This document shows positions 1,150 to 22,866 of a stretch of 23,817 nucleotides of DNA, piece by piece. Source of the stretch: a virus. The first letter of the stretch is position 1, and every line of letters starts with the position of its first letter. A program made the position numbers and the translations under genes. Below the pieces are notes generated by a model. It did not search any database and was not told where the DNA came from. It worked only from the letters and a program-made list of their open reading frames with translations. The stretch is taken from positions 1 through 23,817 of the IMG/VR virus record IMGVR_UViG_3300042565_002849. The stretch is one strand, 5' to 3'.

Positions 1150-1223
1150 GCAAGGCTGGGCGCCGGGAGTGGTGTCGTCTGTCGCCACTCGGGCTCCGGC
1201 ATCGGAGGCCCTCCCCCCACCTC

Positions 1224-1252
1224 TTGACAAAAGACGAACTGTTGTACCGTAT
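1224..1252 (+). promoter_or_regulatory. Possible sigma70-type promoter for the KilA-N gene
   Basis: A perfect -35 hexamer TTGACA is at 1224-1229. The -10 is poor: CCGTAT (1247-1252) at 17-base spacing or TACCGT (1245-1250) at 15-base spacing. It is 58 bases upstream of the KilA-N start codon, on the correct strand, and downstream of the terminator that closes the previous gene, so an independent promoter is expected near here. Confidence 0.35.
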
Positions 1253-1298
1253 CTGCACCCGGCGGCGACGTTGGGCAACAGATCCGCCCGCTTTGAGC

Positions 1299-1303
1299 GG
1301 GAG
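1299..1303 (+). promoter_or_regulatory. Ribosome binding site fixing the KilA-N start
   Basis: GGGAG at 1299-1303 lies six bases before the ATG at 1310. The frame is open further upstream to a GTG at 1169, but that start has no comparable site and would translate the promoter region, so 1310 is chosen. Confidence 0.6.
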
Positions 1304-1309
1304 CCATTG

Positions 1310-2260
1310 ATGAACAGCAGCCTCACCCCCAAGGGGATGGAATCCCGCACCTGGAATGGTGTGGACATCCTGCGTCGGCCCCTCGACGGCTACGTGAACG
1401 CCACGGCCATGTGCAAGGCCTGCGGCAAGGAATTCTCCGACTACCGGCGCCTCGACCGCACAACCCAGTATTTGCAAGCCCTCTCGACGTCCCTGGGAAT
1501 TCCCAGGGACCTCCTGATCCAGTCGATCACCACGGGGCTGAATGAAATCAGGGGCACCTGGGTCCACCCCCGCATCGCGGTGGACCTGGCCCGGTGGCTG
1601 CACCCTAAGTTCGCCGTGATGATGGACGGCTGGTTCCTGGAGAGCTTCACGCCCAAGCTCGCCGCCGATCCCAACCCGGCCACGGCGGCCCTGCCCCCGC
1701 AGCAGCGGGAGCTGCTGGAGTACCAGGTCGGCGGCCCTGGCATCAACGTCCTCGGCGCCACCGCCTTCTCTGAGCCGCTGACCCAGATCCTCGACGCCTA
1801 CACCACCCAGACAGAAGCCGAGCAGGAGGCACTCCCCCAACCTAAACGCTGCCGTTCCCTGCGCTTCCCCCGCCCTGCCGCCAAACACTTCCTTGAATGG
1901 TTCGTTGCTGAGCACGGCCAGCTGGTGATCTCCCCAGCCCCTATCGGCATCCCTGTTGGTGCGGTGGCATGCCCTCCCCGGCCACCGGCCCCGCCGGCAC
2001 CCGCGCCGCAGCCCCCACGCAACGATCAGGCCTGGGCCATGCCCCAGCAGCGCTTCAATCCCGGCGACCTGATCACCGGCCCCGAGCTGGCTCACCTGCT
2101 GGGCATCGATTCGCACTCCCTCAACAAGTGGGCTGCTGCCAAGCCGATCGGAGCAGAACGCGACGGCTGGCGCCTCATCGGCCGCGGCAAGCTCTCCGCC
2201 GGAAAGCTGTGCAGCACCTATCCCCCGGGCTGTGCCAGCTGGCTGTTCATGAAGCTCTGA
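1310..2260 (+). CDS. KilA-N domain DNA-binding protein (antirepressor-like)
   Basis: This 316-residue protein has a KilA-N domain at about residues 15-115. Recognisable elements are WNGVDILRRPLDGYVNATAM, then LNEIRGTWVHPRIAVDLARW and LHPKFAVMMDGWF, the conserved core of that family. KilA-N domains occur in phage antirepressors and in DNA-binding proteins of large DNA viruses. A Pro/Ala-rich linker follows (about 221-238). The C-terminal segment (about 250-292, LITGPELAHLLGIDSHSLNKW) looks like a second helix-turn-helix of the kind that picks out a DNA site. The architecture therefore suggests a two-module DNA-binding regulator. Its position inside a tail operon, with its own ribosome binding site and possible promoter, is unusual, since such genes normally sit near the lysogeny/early region. 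Target and effect (repressor inactivation, late-gene control) are unknown. Confidence 0.8.
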   Translation: MNSSLTPKGMESRTWNGVDILRRPLDGYVNATAMCKACGKEFSDYRRLDRTTQYLQALSTSLGIPRDLLIQSITTGLNEIRGTWVHPRIAVDLARWLHPKFAVMMDGWFLESFTPKLAADPNPATAALPPQQRELLEYQVGGPGINVLGATAFSEPLTQILDAYTTQTEAEQEALPQPKRCRSLRFPRPAAKHFLEWFVAEHGQLVISPAPIGIPVGAVACPPRPPAPPAPAPQPPRNDQAWAMPQQRFNPGDLITGPELAHLLGIDSHSLNKWAAAKPIGAERDGWRLIGRGKLSAGKLCSTYPPGCASWLFMKL

Positions 2261-2691: not shown

Positions 2692-2913
2692 ATGCAGAAC
2701 GTTGTGGCGATCGACTGCCGCGCCCCTGACGCGGGCGGCGAGGTGTCGGTGGGCATGCTGGTGATCGAAGCCGGCACCAGTGATACAGAGGTACTGGTGA
2801 CCCCACCAACAGGCGGTAATGAGTTCTGGATGACCCTCCCTGAGGCCGTCCTGAATCAAGGCCAGCGCTACGTTGGGTTCAAGATCCGTGCAGCCCTTCG
2901 GCCCGTTTCATGA
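2692..2913 (+). CDS. Small hypothetical protein translationally coupled to the tail chaperone
   Basis: A 73-residue protein from the ATG at 2692; a GTG at 2665 would add nine residues, and neither has a clear ribosome binding site. Its stop overlaps the start of the tail chaperone gene as ATGA (2910-2913), which suggests translational coupling to the tail operon rather than membership of the accessory block. The product appears beta-rich (VVAIDCRAP, EVSVGMLVIEAG, TEVLVTPP, RYVGFKIRAA) and small. No family recognised. By position it could be a tail-completion or chaperone-associated protein, but nothing in the sequence proves this. Confidence 0.5.
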   Translation: MQNVVAIDCRAPDAGGEVSVGMLVIEAGTSDTEVLVTPPTGGNEFWMTLPEAVLNQGQRYVGFKIRAALRPVS

Positions 2914-3527
2914 CCTTCAGCAGCCGCCTACTGGCGTCGTTCCGCACCGGTCACAAGATCATCGGCGGGAAGTTCCGCCTCGCGGTCTACGGCAAGGTGC
3001 TCCAGGGGGAAGCGGAGCTCCTCGAGCAGCACGATCGGGAGCGCTGCGTCAGCGTTGGCGCCTTCTACCAGCTGGCCGATGGCATCGCCAAGGAGACGGG
3101 GATGCCCCTGGAGGAGGTGGACAAGCTGATCCAGAACATGACCGCTGCGGTGGATCCAGGCAATCCTGATTCCGTCAAAGGCGCGCTGCAGAGCTTTGGC
3201 CTCCTTTCCGCCGATCAGGGCCGGCTGCACAACTTCCTCGCCAGCCAGACCCTGCTGGGTGATCAGAAGAAGGCCCAGGTCCACAGGGTGCTGGTCGGCC
3301 GCGGCGAGGGGATGGACCCCGAAAGCCTGGAGTGGGTGAAGCTGGGGCCAGATCTCTGGGGTGAGGAGGACACCGCTCAGCTGCCCACCGATCTGATCAA
3401 CGAGATCCAGCAGTTCCTGCTCGAAGAGAAAGCGGCGATGCTGGCAGCGGGAAAGCCTCCGGCACCGGCGAAGACGCCCCGTCGAGCGCCGAAGAGCTCA
3501 CCCGCAGCGAGCACCGCGACCGCATAG
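2910..3527 (+). CDS. Tail assembly chaperone, zero-frame product (lambda gpG analogue)
   Basis: A 205-residue, largely helical protein whose last ~25 residues are low-complexity Ala/Pro/Lys/Ser. It sits directly upstream of a second open frame in the -1 register, followed by the tape-measure gene. This is the hallmark layout of the G/GT tail assembly chaperones, which bind and keep the tape-measure protein soluble while the tube polymerises around it. The heptamer GGGAAAG lies at 3449-3455, in the correct phase (G GGA AAG) and at residue 182, just before the low-complexity tail. That tail is therefore what is translated when the ribosome does not slip. The start overlaps the previous gene by ATGA. 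Sequence similarity to a named G family is not claimed; the call rests on architecture, position and the slippery site. Confidence 0.75.
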   Translation: MTFSSRLLASFRTGHKIIGGKFRLAVYGKVLQGEAELLEQHDRERCVSVGAFYQLADGIAKETGMPLEEVDKLIQNMTAAVDPGNPDSVKGALQSFGLLSADQGRLHNFLASQTLLGDQKKAQVHRVLVGRGEGMDPESLEWVKLGPDLWGEEDTAQLPTDLINEIQQFLLEEKAAMLAAGKPPAPAKTPRRAPKSSPAASTATA

Positions 3528-3940
3528 AGGCCTACCTCAAGACACCGCCAACCGACTGGGATGAGATCCAGCTGGTGCTGACCAGCGGCCTGACCCAGGA
3601 CCCCCGCTGGCATGCCGAGCGGCTGCCGTTTCAACCGGTGGATGCCGTGCTGAAGGCCTATCACTGGGCCCTGAAGGAGAAGGCGAAACGCACCAACGAG
3701 ATGAGCACCACCATGGCCCGGCTGGCGGAGATGGTGGAAATCGCAGCCTTCCCAGGGCTAGGCAACAAGGCCCGGGGCCAGGACGCCTTCCTGCCCTTCA
3801 AGATCACCGAGGCCCCTGGCAAGAACGCCCGGATCACTGAGGAGACGGCCAAGGTGATCCGCTGGCTGATCAGCAACGGGCAGATGCCCCAGCGGGTGCT
3901 GGTGCTGGCCCTGGCGGAGCTGGAGCGCAGCGGGTTCTGA
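2910..3940 (+). CDS. Tail assembly chaperone frameshift fusion (lambda gpGT analogue), join 2910..3455,3455..3940
   Basis: Slipping back one base on GGGAAAG (3449-3455) continues translation in the -1 frame from 3455 to the TGA at 3938-3940, giving a 343-residue fusion: 182 residues of the G part plus 161 residues of a T part. The T frame has no stop between the slip site and 3938. It has no good start of its own: its first in-frame candidate is a GTG at 3575, without a ribosome binding site, and the well-formed sequence EELTRSEHRDRIEAYL lies upstream of it, so it must be reached by frameshifting. The T part is helical and charged (WALKEKAKRTNEMSTTMARL). In lambda the T domain links the chaperone complex to the tube protein. 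The tape-measure gene starts 43 bases later. Confidence 0.8.
3449..3455 (+). promoter_or_regulatory. -1 programmed ribosomal frameshift site GGGAAAG
   Basis: The heptamer G GGA AAG fits the X-XXY-YYZ rule in the zero frame of the gene starting at 2910 (codon boundary at 3450). It is the same heptamer described for the lambda G-GT frameshift. The -1 frame downstream is open to the stop at 3940. Confidence 0.8.
3466..3491 (+). other. Possible frameshift-stimulating stem-loop
   Basis: Ten bases after the slippery heptamer, CGGCG (3466-3470) pairs with CGCCG (3487-3491). An inner stem GACG (3473-3476) / CGTC (3480-3483) closes a CCC loop. The spacing is slightly longer than the usual 5-9 bases for bacterial -1 frameshift stimulators, and lambda itself needs no strong structure, so its role is uncertain. 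Confidence 0.4.
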
Positions 3941-3983: not shown

Positions 3984-6900
3984 TTGACCCAGAGCGGCGG
4001 CGGCGGCGAGTACAGCCTTGGCACAGCCACGCTGACCCTGCGCGGCGACATGCAGCCGCTGGAGCGGGACCTGGCGCGCATGCGGCAGGTGATCGCCGAC
4101 ATGGAGCGGCGGGGGACGAACATCCCTGCCCCCAACATTCCGCCGCCATCGCCGGAGGCGCAGCGTGGCTACGAGGGGCTGCTCAAGACCCTGGAGCGGC
4201 TGCGCGGCGCTGCCCAGGGCGATGGGGAAGCGTTCAAGGCGTTGCAGGAGCAGCTCCGTGGTGCGGGCCAGGCGGCCGGCGCCGCTGGTGGTGCTGGTGG
4301 CTTTGGCGGTGCTGGCGACGCCTTGGGCGGCCTGCTGGGCATGGCCGGCAAGGCGATCCCGATGCTGGGCCAGCTGGGCCTGGCGGCCACCGGCATCCAG
4401 TCGATCTTCGGGGGGATGGCCGGGGCGATCAGCGCCGTGCTGGGGCCGTTGCAGCAGCTATCGGCAGAGGCCGGCCGGCTCAACAAACAAGTGGCGGAGG
4501 CTGGGATTTTCGCGGCGCAGTCGTTCGCGATCCTCGGTCCGGACGGGAAGTTGGTGGAGGGCACTGCCCGCCAGATGCAGATGGTGCGCGGCGCCATCCT
4601 CAAGGAATACAAGGGGATCCAGCAGGAGGTGGCCAACATCTCCGGCGCGACAGCTGGGGAGATCTACGAGGGGTTCAACATCGTCCTGAGCAACATCAGC
4701 AGCCTGGGCGCCAAAGGCACCACGGAGAACGCCGCCAAGTTGGCCACCAGGATTGCCGCCGGCATGAACACTCTTGGCGTGCCTGGCTACCAGCTGCGGG
4801 GTGAGGTGAATGCCCTGATGATGGGCAACATCGGGCCTGACGCGATGCTGGCCAAGAAGCTGGGCATCAGCGGGGATGACGTGCGCCAGCAGCAAGCGCA
4901 GGGCACCTACTACGACTTCCTGATGGGGAAGCTGCAGAAGCTCTACGAAGGGCAGAAAGTCCTGGCTCTCTCGCTGGCCAACGTGAAGAGCAACTTCGAC
5001 GACGTGAACCAGGCGATCTCTTCTGAGGCCGGGCAACCGCTGGAGCGGGACACGGCGACGATGATGCAGTCGATCCTGGTCACCTTCAAAAACCTGCAGC
5101 AGAGCTTCACCGGGTTCTTCAAGTCGATCGCGGAAGCGGTGGGGCCGGTGCTCAAGCTTTTCGGCCCGGTGGTGTCGATCCTGACCTCGATCGGTGCGGC
5201 GGCCTCCTCGGTCGGGCAGATCATCATGGATGTGGTCGGGACGGTCACGGCCGTGGTGGGCGGTGGCCTGATGCCAATCCTCACCGCAGTGGCGCGGACA
5301 GGTGAACTGATCGCTCGCGTGGTGGGGCTAGTGGCGGAGGCCATTGGAGCCGTAATCAACCCGATCAAGGCGCTTTTTAACGTGGGAGGCGACACGCAAA
5401 CCGCCGCGGTGTCGAGCTTCTTCGATCAAATGTTCACCGGCCTGGACAAGGTGAGCGGCGCCATCGATTCGTTCAATCAGAAATGGGCGGCGATGGTGCT
5501 CAACACAAACCTGGCGGCCGTGCGGGCAAACATGAAGCTGACCGGCAAGTCCGAGGAGGAGATCCAGGCAGCCGAAAACGACATGCGGGACCGCTACAAG
5601 CTCCAGAGCGGCCTCACGGAAGAGGTGCAGCTGCGCAGCCTCCAGGTGCCTGGTGCAACCCTGGATCGGATTGAGGCCAGAGACCAACGGCTCGGCGTTG
5701 GATCGGCACGAGCCCTGGCCATCTCCAAAGAATGGGCAGACATCAAGCAGAAGTCCTATCAGAACGAGATCAAGAGCCTGGAGCAGGGCCTCACCTTGAT
5801 GAACAAACAGCGGGAGGTGGCCGAGGCTATGAGCGCCGTGGCGGCTGCCCGGCGCGCCCTGCTGGCCCGCAGCTACGAGCTGGGGGTGCAGGTGGCGGCA
5901 TCCCCCGAGGCCAAGGCCGCGGCCGAAACTCGCCTGGCGGATGTGAAGCTCCGGCAGGAGAAGGAAGCGATCGCCGAGCGGCGGGGGATCCTCCAGACGG
6001 AGCGGGAGCTCCAGCAACGGCAGATGCTGATCCAGCAGACCCAGATCAAGATCCAGCAGGAGCAGCTCAAGATCCAGGTGGCTGAGGCCGAAGCGGAGCG
6101 GGAGCGGGTGCGAACGGATACCCAGGCATTTCTGAAAGCCAGGGGTAACACCTCTCCCCGCAGCCCGGAATGGATGGCCATGACCACTCAGCTCAACAAG
6201 CTGGCGGCGGAGCAGACCTTGAACAATGCCAAGGTGGCCGGGAGCAGAAAAGCCCTGGAGCTGGCTTTCCAGGCCGAGGGGCAGCTGGGCACCATCAACG
6301 GCCTGGAGGCCCAGCGCCTGGGCCTGCAGGAGCAGCAGCTCGACATTCAGGGCCAGTCGGCGCAGTACACCAGGGAGCAGCAGGCCCTGATGGCACAGAT
6401 CAGCGCCGCAGAGCAGAAGATCACCAACGAGCTCACCCGGGCCACCAACATCCAGAACGAGAAGAAGCAGAGGCTGGAAGCGCAAACCGAAGAGATCAAC
6501 CGCCAGCTCAAGCTCCAGGATCAGCAGGGCCGGCTGGAGAAGGCCAGGGCCGACCTGGCTGCCACCCGTGCCAAGGCCGAGGTGCAAGCGGCGCAGCGGC
6601 TCGAGGAGGTGCAGGCGGCCCAGGACCGGGCCCGCAATGGTGGCGGCACGGCGTCGGTGATCGAGGCCCAGATTGCGGCGGCCGCGGCCGGCGTGACGGA
6701 AATGCAGACGGCGGCCGAGGTGCAGAAGCGCCTCTATGACGCCCGTGAGCAGCAGATGCAGCGGGAGCACCAGCTGCAGGCCCGCCAGCTGGAGGTGCAA
6801 CAGATGCGGGAGAAGAGCGAGGTGCGGATTCAGGAGCTGCAGCTGCGAGGCCAGCAGGTTGCTCTGGCGATCGAGAAAGCCCGGCTGGTCGCCGATCTTG

Positions 6901-8684
6901 GCCGGCTGGGGCAAAGCAAGCAGCGGGATGCCCTGAGCCAGCAGGTGGCGGGGGCCAGCAGTGTACCGGCGCTGCCTGGAACGCCGACTGGGATGACGGC
7001 CAACATCTTGCCCGGAACCAAAGGCGGCCCGAACTGGAACGAGGGGGTGGGCTACGGCCGCGGCCGGTTGCATGCCGGGCAGGATCTGGGGACGGATCCC
7101 AACGATCCGGTGGCGGCGCGGATGAATGGAGTGATTGAGCAGGCCTACGCCAAGGGGTTTGGCAAGGCTGGCGGTGCTGTCGTGATCAAGTATCAGGACG
7201 GGTCCAAAGGCACCTATGGCCATGTGAATCCACTGGTTGCCCAGGGGCAGAGCGTGTCGGCTGGTCAGCTCATTGCGAGGGTGACACCAGACGGAAACAA
7301 CAGCCACTTGCATTACGAGCTGAGGAACGCTCAGGGCCAGCTGAACTTCAATCCAGGTGCAGCAATCCGTGCGGGCATGGCGGCGGGAGGACGCCCAGCG
7401 GCTGCCGCAGTGCCTGCGTCGGCAATCCGGGCGACCAACCTGGGCGGTGGAGGTGCTGCAGCTGGCGTGAGCGGCGGTCCGGTAACCAGCACCGCCAACC
7501 AAGAGCAGGGATTGCAGCAGGCACTGCAGGACAACACTCGGGTTCAAGGGGAAGTTGCCCAGGCCCTTAAGGACTTCGGGGAATACCAGAAGACGATCGG
7601 TAATGCTCAGTCGCTGGAGACAGAAAACCTCACCGAGCAGCAGCTGGCGGAGCGGGCCCAGTTCGAGTTTGAGCAGCGCAAGGCCCTCTTGACGGCCGAG
7701 GTGATGAAGACCTCCCAGGGCCAGCTGGGGCTGGCGGCTGGCGATGCGGTGAGCGGCAGCATCAGCGGCAGCCTGTCTGGCGCGATGCAGGCACTCTTAA
7801 ACGGTGGTGACGTGAAGCAGGCGGTGTCGGGCGCTCTGGCGCAGGCCGGCCAGGGGCTGATGCAGGCCACCATGGATGCCCTGCTGAACCCCCTGCTGGC
7901 AGAGCTGCAGAAAGGGATCTTCAAGACCGTCACCGGGGTGGATGTAGAAGCGCTGGCGTTGCAAAAGGCTGGAACCGATCTCACGGCCGCGGCTATCGAG
8001 CTGATGAGAGCCGGCACTGTTCTGGCCGGCAACGGCGGCACCGAGGCCGCGGCGATGAACTTCGCCTCCAACCCCTTCGCCTCCAACCCCTTCGCCATTG
8101 CGGGCAAGCTCCTTGGTGGTGTTGGGGGCTTTTCCGGTGCCATGAACCTGGACTTCGGCATCCCTGCCCTGACCGGAATCCCAGATTTCTCCAGCGCCTT
8201 CACCCCTGGCCTGGCCGGCGGTGGAACTATGAAGTACGGCCTCGACTACCTGGTGGGTGAAAAGGGCGCCGAGATCGTGCGGTTCAACAAAGACGGCGGC
8301 CGGGTCTACTCCAACCGTGCCCTCACCCAGGCCCTTGGCGTGCCGTTCCAGCGGGCACCAGGCGGTGGGGCTGCCGTGGCCGATGGTGACAGCCTTGGGG
8401 TGCCGTTCAAGGCGGCCGGCTTTGCTGGTGGGATCCCCTTCCTCAAGGCTGGCCCCGGTGGCGCCCCCGGCAGCACCGGCAGCCCCGGCGGATCGGCGGC
8501 CGCCATGCCTCGATCCGCCCCAATCCGCCTCAGCGTCGAAAGCCAGGTCATCAACGGCGTGGAGTACGCCACCATCGAGCAGCTGCGGGAGGCCTCGGCG
8601 GCGGCGGCCCAGGCCGGCCGGGATTCGGCCTACGACGGCATGCGCAACAACCCCTCCATTCAGCGCTCGCTGGGGATGCGCTGA
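3984..8684 (+). CDS. Tail tape-measure protein with embedded M23 endopeptidase domain
   Basis: This 1566-residue protein sets tail length and helps DNA enter the cell. It starts at TTG 3984; the next in-frame start, ATG 4050, would remove the conserved-looking LGTATLTLRGD segment. Features in order: N-terminal helical region; hydrophobic segments at about 114-154 and 389-458, as expected for a protein released into the cell envelope; very long Gln/Glu/Arg-rich coiled coil at about 590-990; an M23 (lysostaphin/LytM-type) zinc peptidase domain at about 1005-1120; and a Gly/Ala-rich C-terminus with the YLVGEKGAEIVRF element (about 1421-1433) typical of tape-measure ends. The M23 ligands are all visible: H1030 and D1034 (HAGQD), and H1108-x-H1110 (HLHYE), with YGHV between. 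The domain should cut peptidoglycan cross-bridges during DNA injection. By the usual rule of about 0.15 nm per residue the tail would be over 200 nm. The stop overlaps the next start (TGATG). Confidence 0.93.
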   Translation: MTQSGGGGEYSLGTATLTLRGDMQPLERDLARMRQVIADMERRGTNIPAPNIPPPSPEAQRGYEGLLKTLERLRGAAQGDGEAFKALQEQLRGAGQAAGAAGGAGGFGGAGDALGGLLGMAGKAIPMLGQLGLAATGIQSIFGGMAGAISAVLGPLQQLSAEAGRLNKQVAEAGIFAAQSFAILGPDGKLVEGTARQMQMVRGAILKEYKGIQQEVANISGATAGEIYEGFNIVLSNISSLGAKGTTENAAKLATRIAAGMNTLGVPGYQLRGEVNALMMGNIGPDAMLAKKLGISGDDVRQQQAQGTYYDFLMGKLQKLYEGQKVLALSLANVKSNFDDVNQAISSEAGQPLERDTATMMQSILVTFKNLQQSFTGFFKSIAEAVGPVLKLFGPVVSILTSIGAAASSVGQIIMDVVGTVTAVVGGGLMPILTAVARTGELIARVVGLVAEAIGAVINPIKALFNVGGDTQTAAVSSFFDQMFTGLDKVSGAIDSFNQKWAAMVLNTNLAAVRANMKLTGKSEEEIQAAENDMRDRYKLQSGLTEEVQLRSLQVPGATLDRIEARDQRLGVGSARALAISKEWADIKQKSYQNEIKSLEQGLTLMNKQREVAEAMSAVAAARRALLARSYELGVQVAASPEAKAAAETRLADVKLRQEKEAIAERRGILQTERELQQRQMLIQQTQIKIQQEQLKIQVAEAEAERERVRTDTQAFLKARGNTSPRSPEWMAMTTQLNKLAAEQTLNNAKVAGSRKALELAFQAEGQLGTINGLEAQRLGLQEQQLDIQGQSAQYTREQQALMAQISAAEQKITNELTRATNIQNEKKQRLEAQTEEINRQLKLQDQQGRLEKARADLAATRAKAEVQAAQRLEEVQAAQDRARNGGGTASVIEAQIAAAAAGVTEMQTAAEVQKRLYDAREQQMQREHQLQARQLEVQQMREKSEVRIQELQLRGQQVALAIEKARLVADLGRLGQSKQRDALSQQVAGASSVPALPGTPTGMTANILPGTKGGPNWNEGVGYGRGRLHAGQDLGTDPNDPVAARMNGVIEQAYAKGFGKAGGAVVIKYQDGSKGTYGHVNPLVAQGQSVSAGQLIARVTPDGNNSHLHYELRNAQGQLNFNPGAAIRAGMAAGGRPAAAAVPASAIRATNLGGGGAAAGVSGGPVTSTANQEQGLQQALQDNTRVQGEVAQALKDFGEYQKTIGNAQSLETENLTEQQLAERAQFEFEQRKALLTAEVMKTSQGQLGLAAGDAVSGSISGSLSGAMQALLNGGDVKQAVSGALAQAGQGLMQATMDALLNPLLAELQKGIFKTVTGVDVEALALQKAGTDLTAAAIELMRAGTVLAGNGGTEAAAMNFASNPFASNPFAIAGKLLGGVGGFSGAMNLDFGIPALTGIPDFSSAFTPGLAGGGTMKYGLDYLVGEKGAEIVRFNKDGGRVYSNRALTQALGVPFQRAPGGGAAVADGDSLGVPFKAAGFAGGIPFLKAGPGGAPGSTGSPGGSAAAMPRSAPIRLSVESQVINGVEYATIEQLREASAAAAQAGRDSAYDGMRNNPSIQRSLGMR
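8061..8096 (+). repeat. 15-bp tandem repeat inside the tape-measure gene
   Basis: TTCGCCTCCAACCCC is present twice in tandem (8061-8075, 8076-8090), followed by a partial TTCGCC, encoding FASNP-FASNP-FA. It is in frame, so slippage would change repeat number without a frameshift. It lies in the flexible region between the peptidase and the C-terminal motif. Confidence 0.85.
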
Positions 8685-13859: not shown

Positions 13860-14258
13860 ATGGGCGTCCGGAATACAACCCAGAGCGACGTGTATTGGAA
13901 CGGCTCGCTGGTGGGCAAGATCACGGACGTCAGTGTCTCCGTCTCCCGCGACATCCTGCCCACCACCGGAGTGGGCCAGGTCGCCAGCACCAGCACCAAG
14001 GGGATGCGCGAATCGCAGATCAGCTGCACCCTGCTCTACGACCCGGACAACGCCCCAGCGGTGTCGATGGCGAACAGCATCTGGGACGACAGCGACGATG
14101 TCGACACCCTCCGCGTTGTCACCCGTCGGGGGTCGACCCGCGGCGACTTCACCATGGACGTACTCTCCGCCTCCCTGGGCACCCCGGTGCGGGTGCGGGA
14201 GCTGATCTCCTGCTCCCTCTCCCTCACCGTCAACGGCGATATGAGCGGCCGGTTCTGA
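13860..14258 (+). CDS. Tail-tube-like protein, small
   Basis: A 132-residue protein with mainly beta-strand character. VYWNGSLVGKITDVSVSVSRDI, then TTGVGQVASTSTKGMRESQ, ISCTLLYDPDNAP and a closing ELISCSLSLTVNGDM follow the plan of phage tail-tube proteins: a strand pair, a long loop, a 'YDP' turn, and a late strand ending in a '-TVNG' turn. The ATG at 13860 has AGGG immediately before it, too close to be ideal, but no better start exists. The protein is shorter than a normal main tube protein and lies after the tip gene rather than before the tape measure. It is therefore more likely a terminal ring or tip-associated tube homologue than the main tube subunit; alternatively it could be the tube itself. 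The next gene, three bases downstream, carries a similar domain. Confidence 0.5.
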   Translation: MGVRNTTQSDVYWNGSLVGKITDVSVSVSRDILPTTGVGQVASTSTKGMRESQISCTLLYDPDNAPAVSMANSIWDDSDDVDTLRVVTRRGSTRGDFTMDVLSASLGTPVRVRELISCSLSLTVNGDMSGRF

Positions 14259-21079: not shown

Positions 21080-21373
21080 ATGCTGCTTAAGCCATTGATC
21101 CCCTGGCTTCTGCGCCGGCTGCTCAGCCTGCTGCTGCACGCCCTGGGCCGTGATCTGTGCCGGCGACTGCCGCAGGTGTTTGCGCTGATCGACGAGCAGA
21201 TCATCCCCTCGATGCAGCGCGGCACCCGAGCCACCGACATGGTGTTTTTCACCTCGGTTCAGCGTGTTGTCCACCGGGATCCCAGCGACATGGAGCTGCG
21301 TGTTCTGCAGCTGCTGTTTGATCCATCCATTGCCGCTGAGCACCAGCAACCCACCACCACAGCAGACGAATGA
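21080..21373 (+). CDS. Small cationic amphipathic protein before the endolysin
   Basis: A 97-residue protein from the ATG at 21080; a TTG at 21071 would add three residues, and neither start has a good ribosome binding site. The N-terminal ~25 residues (MLLKPLIPWLLRRLLSLLLH) are hydrophobic but studded with Arg/Lys, as in an amphipathic or membrane-associating helix. The rest is soluble and helical (PQVFALIDEQIIPSMQRG, SVQRVVHRDPSDMELRVLQLL). Its stop overlaps the endolysin start by ATGA. It may help lysis (holin accessory or pinholin-like), but no family is recognised. Confidence 0.5.
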   Translation: MLLKPLIPWLLRRLLSLLLHALGRDLCRRLPQVFALIDEQIIPSMQRGTRATDMVFFTSVQRVVHRDPSDMELRVLQLLFDPSIAAEHQQPTTTADE

Positions 21374-22092
21374 CTCTCTCCCTCATGCGTTACGCCATCC
21401 ACACGGTGGCGGGCCATCCTGGCCATGAAGCCTTCTGGCGAGCTGTTGAAGCGATGCTCACGCCAGAGCAGCTTCAACGGCTCGGCGATGGGGGCGACAT
21501 CCGCAAAAGCACCTGGCTCAAAACCGCCACCAGGCCAGCAACCCAGGGCCCATGGGAGAGGGAGATCACGGCCTGCCGGCCTCTCCTGGATCTGATCTAC
21601 CGCCACGAAGCTGGCGGCTTTGCCAGCCCCTACGAGGCCTACAACCGTGGCAGCGCCGGCGACAGTCTCGGCAAGCCCTGGCCTGGCGGCCTCCAGAACC
21701 TCACCATCGGCCAGATCAAAACCCTGCAGCAAACCGGCAAGCTCTTTGCCGTCGGTGCCCCCCAGCTGATCCCTTCCACCCTGCTCGAGCAGCAAGCGCT
21801 GGCCGGTCTTTCTGATGCGGATCTGTTCAGTGCCGTGAACCAGGATCGGCTGACCACCGCCATCCTGCTGCGGGGCAAGCGACCCATGTTGGCCCGGTTC
21901 CTCCTCCAGGGCACCAACCAGGCCGCCGCGATTGACGACCTGGCCTTTGAGTGGGCCAGCCTGCCCAACAGCCAGGGCCAGGGCTGGTATGACGGCGACA
22001 AGGGCGGGAACAAGGCCCACGGCAGCCTGGCCGCTGTGATCGGCGCGCTGCAGGCCTCCAGAGCCCGGGTGCTGAGCCCAGCTAAGGCCTGA
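21370..22092 (+). CDS. Endolysin, muramidase / lysozyme-like
   Basis: A 240-residue protein whose start overlaps the previous stop (ATGA). Residues ~70-215 form a lysozyme-like glycosidase core: PLLDLIYRHEAGGFASPYEA with the likely catalytic Glu80, AYNRGSAGDSLG, LTIGQIKTLQ, then FAVGAPQLIPSTLLEQ. That spacing (catalytic E, 'YNRG', 'TIGEI..Q', 'FAvG.yQlIP.Tl') matches phage endolysins and lytic transglycosylase-like muramidases that cut the glycan strand of peptidoglycan. The N-terminal ~65 residues are a separate, poorly conserved helical part without a signal peptide, so export through a holin is expected. The gene ends at TGA 22090-22092, where it meets the convergent M15 gene with no spacer. 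Confidence 0.8.
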   Translation: MTLSLMRYAIHTVAGHPGHEAFWRAVEAMLTPEQLQRLGDGGDIRKSTWLKTATRPATQGPWEREITACRPLLDLIYRHEAGGFASPYEAYNRGSAGDSLGKPWPGGLQNLTIGQIKTLQQTGKLFAVGAPQLIPSTLLEQQALAGLSDADLFSAVNQDRLTTAILLRGKRPMLARFLLQGTNQAAAIDDLAFEWASLPNSQGQGWYDGDKGGNKAHGSLAAVIGALQASRARVLSPAKA

Positions 22093-22866
22093 TCAGTACC
22101 GCCAGACATCTGCGGGCCGGGCACCGGCACCGGGCACGAAGCGGCCGCCATTGCGGCGATCCAAGTGGATGAAGCCACGATCGCGGCCGTCACCAAAGCC
22201 ACCGGTCCAGCGCACGATCAGCCAGTCGTAGAGGGCCTGCAGAGGCAGGCCGATCGGGTAGATGTCGATCGCCATCCCGGTCACGTGGAAGCTATTGTGC
22301 ACACCGCCCACCTCCCTGTTGATCGGCTCCGGCCGGTAGAAGCTGGTCATCCCCAACGGGCGGCCCCAGGCCTGCCGGATCGATTGGAACTCTGCCGCCG
22401 TGCCCAGGATCCGGGGGATCACCGAGCTCTGGGCCGACGGTCGCCGCCGCCGATCAAACTGCAGCACCTCCCCCACCGTCAGGTTTGGCGTCACCAGAGC
22501 GTCGAAGTCGCTCCAGTCGATCATTCCCGGCTGCAGGAGCAGCGGTGCTGGAGGGGCCGCCGCCGGCGCCTTGGCCTGCAACCGCCTGAAGTGGGGGGCG
22601 TAGGCGTGCCACTGGCCGGCGCCATGGCCCAGCTCCACCAGCTCATGGGCCTGCCCTGGCAGCTCTGTGCTGGCAATCACCGGCATCTTGTGCCCCGCAG
22701 GCACCATGACCTTCTGCTCCTCAGGCAGATCGGCCGCAGCAGCCGTGCTTTTCTTCAGCCAGGTGTCCTGCACGGCCTGGAAGGTGAAGATCACCGGCTT
22801 CTGCGGTGTCTCGATCGCTTTGCCTTCAGGAGCGGCCGCGGCGGGCTTGGAGCTGGTTGGCGGCAT
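22093..22866 (-). CDS. M15-family zinc peptidase (D,D-/L,D-carboxypeptidase-like)
   Basis: A 257-residue minus-strand protein. Residues ~25-95 (FTFQAVQDTWLKKSTA, then VMVPAGHKMPVIA, WHAYAPHFR) look like an SH3-like or wall-associating module. After a Pro/Ala linker the catalytic domain (~125-245) reads NLTVGEVLQFDRR, ILGTAAEFQSIRQAWG, TSFYRPEPINREVGGVH, then FHVTGMAIDIYP and GFIHLDRR. The zinc ligands expected for M15_3 peptidases are present: H194, D201 (H-x6-D) and H234. The enzyme should cut the peptide stem of peptidoglycan, complementing the muramidase next door. No signal peptide is seen. The stop codon (TCA on the + strand, 22093-22095) abuts the endolysin stop, together spelling the palindrome TGATCA. 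It could be a second lysis enzyme or a virion-borne wall hydrolase. Confidence 0.85.
   Translation of the reverse strand: MPPTSSKPAAAAPEGKAIETPQKPVIFTFQAVQDTWLKKSTAAAADLPEEQKVMVPAGHKMPVIASTELPGQAHELVELGHGAGQWHAYAPHFRRLQAKAPAAAPPAPLLLQPGMIDWSDFDALVTPNLTVGEVLQFDRRRRPSAQSSVIPRILGTAAEFQSIRQAWGRPLGMTSFYRPEPINREVGGVHNSFHVTGMAIDIYPIGLPLQALYDWLIVRWTGGFGDGRDRGFIHLDRRNGGRFVPGAGARPADVWRY

Follow-up and report, generated by a model that had tools for sequence, protein, structure and literature searches.

Evidence for a probable lambda G/GT-type -1 programmed ribosomal frameshift in a tail-chaperone-like gene pair of a metagenomic virus

The stretch of DNA analysed here (the window) is an entire linear virus record of 23,817 nucleotides (23.8 kb), a metagenomic virus contig with no larger genome behind it. 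It stems from a tailed virus with kinship to cyanobacterial phages. On its + strand, a 0-frame ORF of 205 amino acids at 2910-3527, which belongs to a 41-member family and was also modelled with AF2, is read by us as a G-like tail assembly chaperone gene. It is followed in the -1 frame by a T-like extension (3455-3940, +), which is likewise conserved in 41 sequences and for which frameshifting would be the only route of expression. Between them lies a slippery heptamer, G GGA AAG (3449-3455, +). The pair is located directly 5' of the gene for a tape measure protein of 1566 amino acids (3984-8684, +), the expected client of the chaperones, so that the T stop at 3940 is followed by the tape measure ORF from 3984 in the order G-T-tape measure. 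This assignment is based on phrog_58 (4.9e-4) and on tblastn matches to annotated tape measure proteins of Aphanizomenon, Planktothrix and Nodularia phages. A Peptidase_M23 domain (PF01551, 1.6e-16) occupies residues 1029-1120 of the same protein.

Several other genes of the window deserve mention. A KilA-N domain protein (PF04383, 1.4e-20) is encoded within the structural module at 1169-2260 (+), shortly 5' of G, and the relatives L003 and L014 have an ORF of comparable size at the corresponding place 5' of G. Positions 3-563 probably hold the final part of a further structural gene, with L003:2262-3272 (Big_5-like C-terminus) as its likely counterpart. The ORF at 13860-14258 (+) weakly matches major tail or tail tube proteins (phrog_10528, 1.7e-5; PF06199 below cut-off), and lies at an unusual place, 3' of the tape measure gene and the genes for the tail tip. 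Two endolysin-like genes, phrog_90-like and Peptidase_M15_3, lie back to back at 21370-22092 (+) and 22093-22866 (-).

Position 3449 is a third codon position of ORF 2910-3527, so that GGGAAAG at 3449-3455 reads G GGA AAG, which is the phase that the original prediction had given it. This heptamer is the only one of the XXXYYYZ type in the ORF, whatever the phase, and in its X XXY YYZ phase it falls inside the overlap of the two open frames. From 3365 onwards the -1 frame meets no stop codon until the one at 3938-3940. This corresponds to 163 codons counted from the slip, or to the 161 predicted before if counting begins after the slip site, and reading the frame through to 3940 yields the expected fusion of 343 residues. 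The accompanying claim that the -1 frame has no start of its own applies to the stretch before 3575, where its earliest ATG, GTG or TTG (a GTG, 42 codons in) is located, but not to the region beyond, in which further in-frame GTG and ATG codons are present.

Viewed in one sequence and by itself, the heptamer is only moderately unlikely to have arisen by chance. Of the synonymous codon shuffles, 6.6% had a phased heptamer of some kind in the overlap, and 2.3% had GGGAAAG specifically. Long open stretches are frequent in the GC-rich window, 35 of them being of at least 191 codons. Because the single-sequence statistics are moderate, the decision rests on the relatives, and it is by comparison with their sequences that we consider chance to be excluded.

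Loci of relatives were retrieved by similarity to the G or the T protein and never by the motif. Both frames were readable in 66 loci, a number that includes near-duplicate contigs and does not represent independent events; L056, L060 and L076, which are cut off, and L023 are outside this count. Distinct junction sequences amount to 44, window included. The T frame is in the -1 frame of G, with a correctly phased slippery heptamer in the overlap, in each of the 66 assessable loci, while identity to the window drops to about 23% for G and about 25% for T. The length of the T frame past the slip is nearly invariant (155-166 codons). The heptamer itself is AAAAAAA in 45 relatives, GGGAAAG in 19 (20 with the window), GGGAAAA in one and AAAAAAG in one, and the T tree points to at least three changes of its letters with the slippery phase retained. 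Comparison of the heptamer in related genomes had been proposed as a check, a kept pair of frames without the heptamer being the adverse outcome; the letters vary, but none of the 66 loci lacks a phased slippery heptamer. Since the GGGAAAG group forms one fully supported clade on the T tree, GC content and ancestry are confounded, and we do not claim a causal link between GC content and the letters of the heptamer. Protein searches of bacterial and archaeal genome contigs and of plasmids returned no relative.

We accept the heptamer as a functional signal because it is conserved in 66 of 66 assessable relatives; judged by this conservation, the signal is real and of a well-known kind. The same survey bears on two other explanations. 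In a metagenomic virus contig, a frame break might stem from faulty assembly or from the decay of a pseudogene, with a single ORF as the true gene. This reading was rejected as refuted by the relatives and is extremely improbable, given that the same arrangement, with G stop and T frame intact, recurs in 66 other loci, one of them in the isolate genome of Synechococcus phage S-CBS4. Alternatively, the fusion could arise by transcriptional slippage instead of ribosomal frameshifting, for which the A AAA AAA of many relatives would offer a homopolymer where RNA polymerase could slip. However, the GGGAAAG site of the window contains no homopolymer longer than three, and the slippery phase is preserved across four different heptamers, which leaves transcriptional slippage with a negligible probability.

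A third alternative is that the downstream frame is an independent, translationally coupled gene that starts within the overlap, at GTG 3575 or at a later GTG or ATG, and involves no frameshift. Phage genes often overlap and are often translationally coupled, and GTG 3575 and later in-frame starts do exist. The stretch 3530-3574, however, which is devoid of ATG, GTG and TTG, reads A(Y/F)LKT(P/A)PTDWDEIQL in all near relatives, and its variable columns are mostly third positions of the -1 frame (2, 1 and 5 by position; small numbers). The start at 3575 is missing from most near relatives; in the L005 clade it is replaced by ATC, and the first -1-frame start of that clade is found 65 codons past the slip. 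In some distant relatives (L064, L073, L094, L106-L111, L115 and L116) the first 80 codons contain no start. An independent gene would, moreover, leave the phased heptamer of all relatives without a reason to be kept, and we reject this explanation as very unlikely. Because the protein is conserved upstream of 3575 where start codons are absent, the -1 frame is in all probability translated from the slip and not from 3575. On the strength of these alignments, we count selection on the -1 frame as established, alongside the anatomy, phase and conservation of the site.

Frameshift sites of the -1 type usually, not obligatorily, have a downstream structure or an upstream Shine-Dalgarno-like element as stimulator. 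The original prediction placed a two-tier stem-loop ten bases after the heptamer. A two-tier fold beginning about 10 nt past the heptamer does appear as the centroid structure in the window, but its stability is no better than that of dinucleotide-shuffled sequence across windows of 40-80 nt (z -0.0 to -1.5; -0.29 for 80 nt, and -1.45, -0.86 and -0.03 for windows of 40-60 nt). The stem-loop at 3460-3491 (+; over the 40 nt that follow the heptamer, MFE -15.3 kcal/mol and z -1.45) is listed as a candidate stimulator, unproven here. Hairpins at this place are stronger in relatives than in the window. Near relatives share an 8-bp hairpin, CGGCGCCG-AAGA-CGGCGCCG, four bases after the heptamer, with 95.8% of cells paired and one pair changed on both sides, values as high being reached by 77 of 500 shuffles. 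In the hairpin of the S-CBS4-like subclade two pairs are changed on both sides, and 8 of 13 sequences break two pairs. Many lower-GC distant relatives (L092-L117) carry a Shine-Dalgarno-like AGGAGG about 10 nt 5' of the heptamer, at a dnaX-like spacing; the window clade lacks this element. Stimulators thus seem to vary between lineages, with none demonstrated for the window itself. An Rfam scan returned no RNA family.

Searches of Pfam and PHROGs with the window's G and T gave no match above threshold. Pfam Phage_tail_T was hit by 18 of the 41 T-family members, as a weak signal below cut-off in distant relatives (best E 0.0027). The AF2 model of G (mean pLDDT 77.8) is ordered and mostly helical through residue 181; disorder sets in at residue 182, which corresponds to the slip codon; the model of T is poor (pLDDT 60.5). 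No match came from sequence searches of the PDB or from searching its folds with the G model. The sole BFVD fold match below 0.001 was an unnamed 264-aa protein with an rmsd of 21, and two BFVD proteins named tail assembly chaperone reached E values of only 0.21 and 0.34, which we do not treat as evidence. As for the names G and GT proposed earlier, position and mechanism fit tail chaperones, but hhalign comparison of profiles with lambda-type G and T revealed no relationship in sequence (probabilities 0.2% for G and 0.1% for T). A tail-chaperone role of the pair is suggested by its position, anatomy and mechanism.

Taken together, the universal phased heptamer, the conserved startless -1 frame and the position next to the tape measure gene support a frameshift that joins two tail-chaperone frames, and we conclude that -1 programmed ribosomal frameshifting of the type known from lambda G/GT very probably operates at this locus. 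That ribosomes slip here, the rate at which they do so and the chaperone role of the products are inferred. Most ribosomes would translate 2910-3527 into the short chaperone G. A minority would move back by one nucleotide at G GGA AAG, so that both tRNAs pair anew with GGG AAA, and would read on to 3940 to produce the 343-residue G-T fusion. On the lambda model, G may coat the tape measure protein encoded at 3984-8684, and the T extension may bring in the tail-tube subunit.

The novelty lies in the membership, since the tail-chaperone family found here is missing from Pfam and PHROGs above threshold, uses a known mechanism and has exchangeable slip heptamers. The concept of the frameshift remains unchanged; the known G/GT frameshift is extended to a protein family for which neither database holds a model above threshold. 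It is tempting to speculate that aquatic cyanophage-related viruses share an uncatalogued tail-chaperone family in which the frameshift is invariant and its parts are exchangeable. Heptamers (GGGAAAG in GC-rich, AAAAAAA in lower-GC members), hairpins and Shine-Dalgarno-like elements would turn over by lineage, and the G:GT ratio would presumably stay constant; we give this broader picture an even chance. The family offers natural swaps of heptamer and stimulator for measuring how phages control the G:GT ratio.

Among known systems, gp032 and gp033 of S-CBS4 (NC_016766) constitute a homologous pair (30% identity over T) that also lies 5' of the tape measure gene. At its junction the slippery sequence is a correctly phased A AAA AAA, as compared with GGGAAAG in the window, and the -1 frame is open from there through the junction. 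As predicted for default annotation, the public record of this cultured relative presents the second half of the fusion as a truncated separate gene: gp032 and gp033 are two hypothetical proteins, and gp033 begins well inside the T frame, about 84 codons past the slip. The open papers searched contained no report of frameshifting in the S-CBS4 tail genes, and the paper on P-SS2, a siphovirus of Prochlorococcus, is silent on frameshifting (PMC2784084). The haloarchaeal siphoviruses HCTV-1, -2 and -5 have g-t frameshifts in different hosts.

In the gpG/gpGT frameshift of phage lambda, the heptamer is G_GGA_AAG. Heptamer and phase are the same as in the window, T is made solely as a fusion, and the tape measure gene comes next. 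Differences include the size of G (205 amino acids in the window versus 140 in lambda), the absence of a detectable sequence relation between the G and T proteins of the two, and an extended GGGGGGAAAG in most near relatives of the window. G_GGA_AAG is described as very prone to shifting in E. coli, and frameshifting between G and T as widely conserved among long-tailed phages (PMC5009743). In lambda, G is the partner that binds the tape measure protein, and recruitment of the tube subunit falls to T (PMC5009743); the order of the AF2 model ending at the slip, together with the tape measure neighbour, is consistent with the same division of roles in the window.
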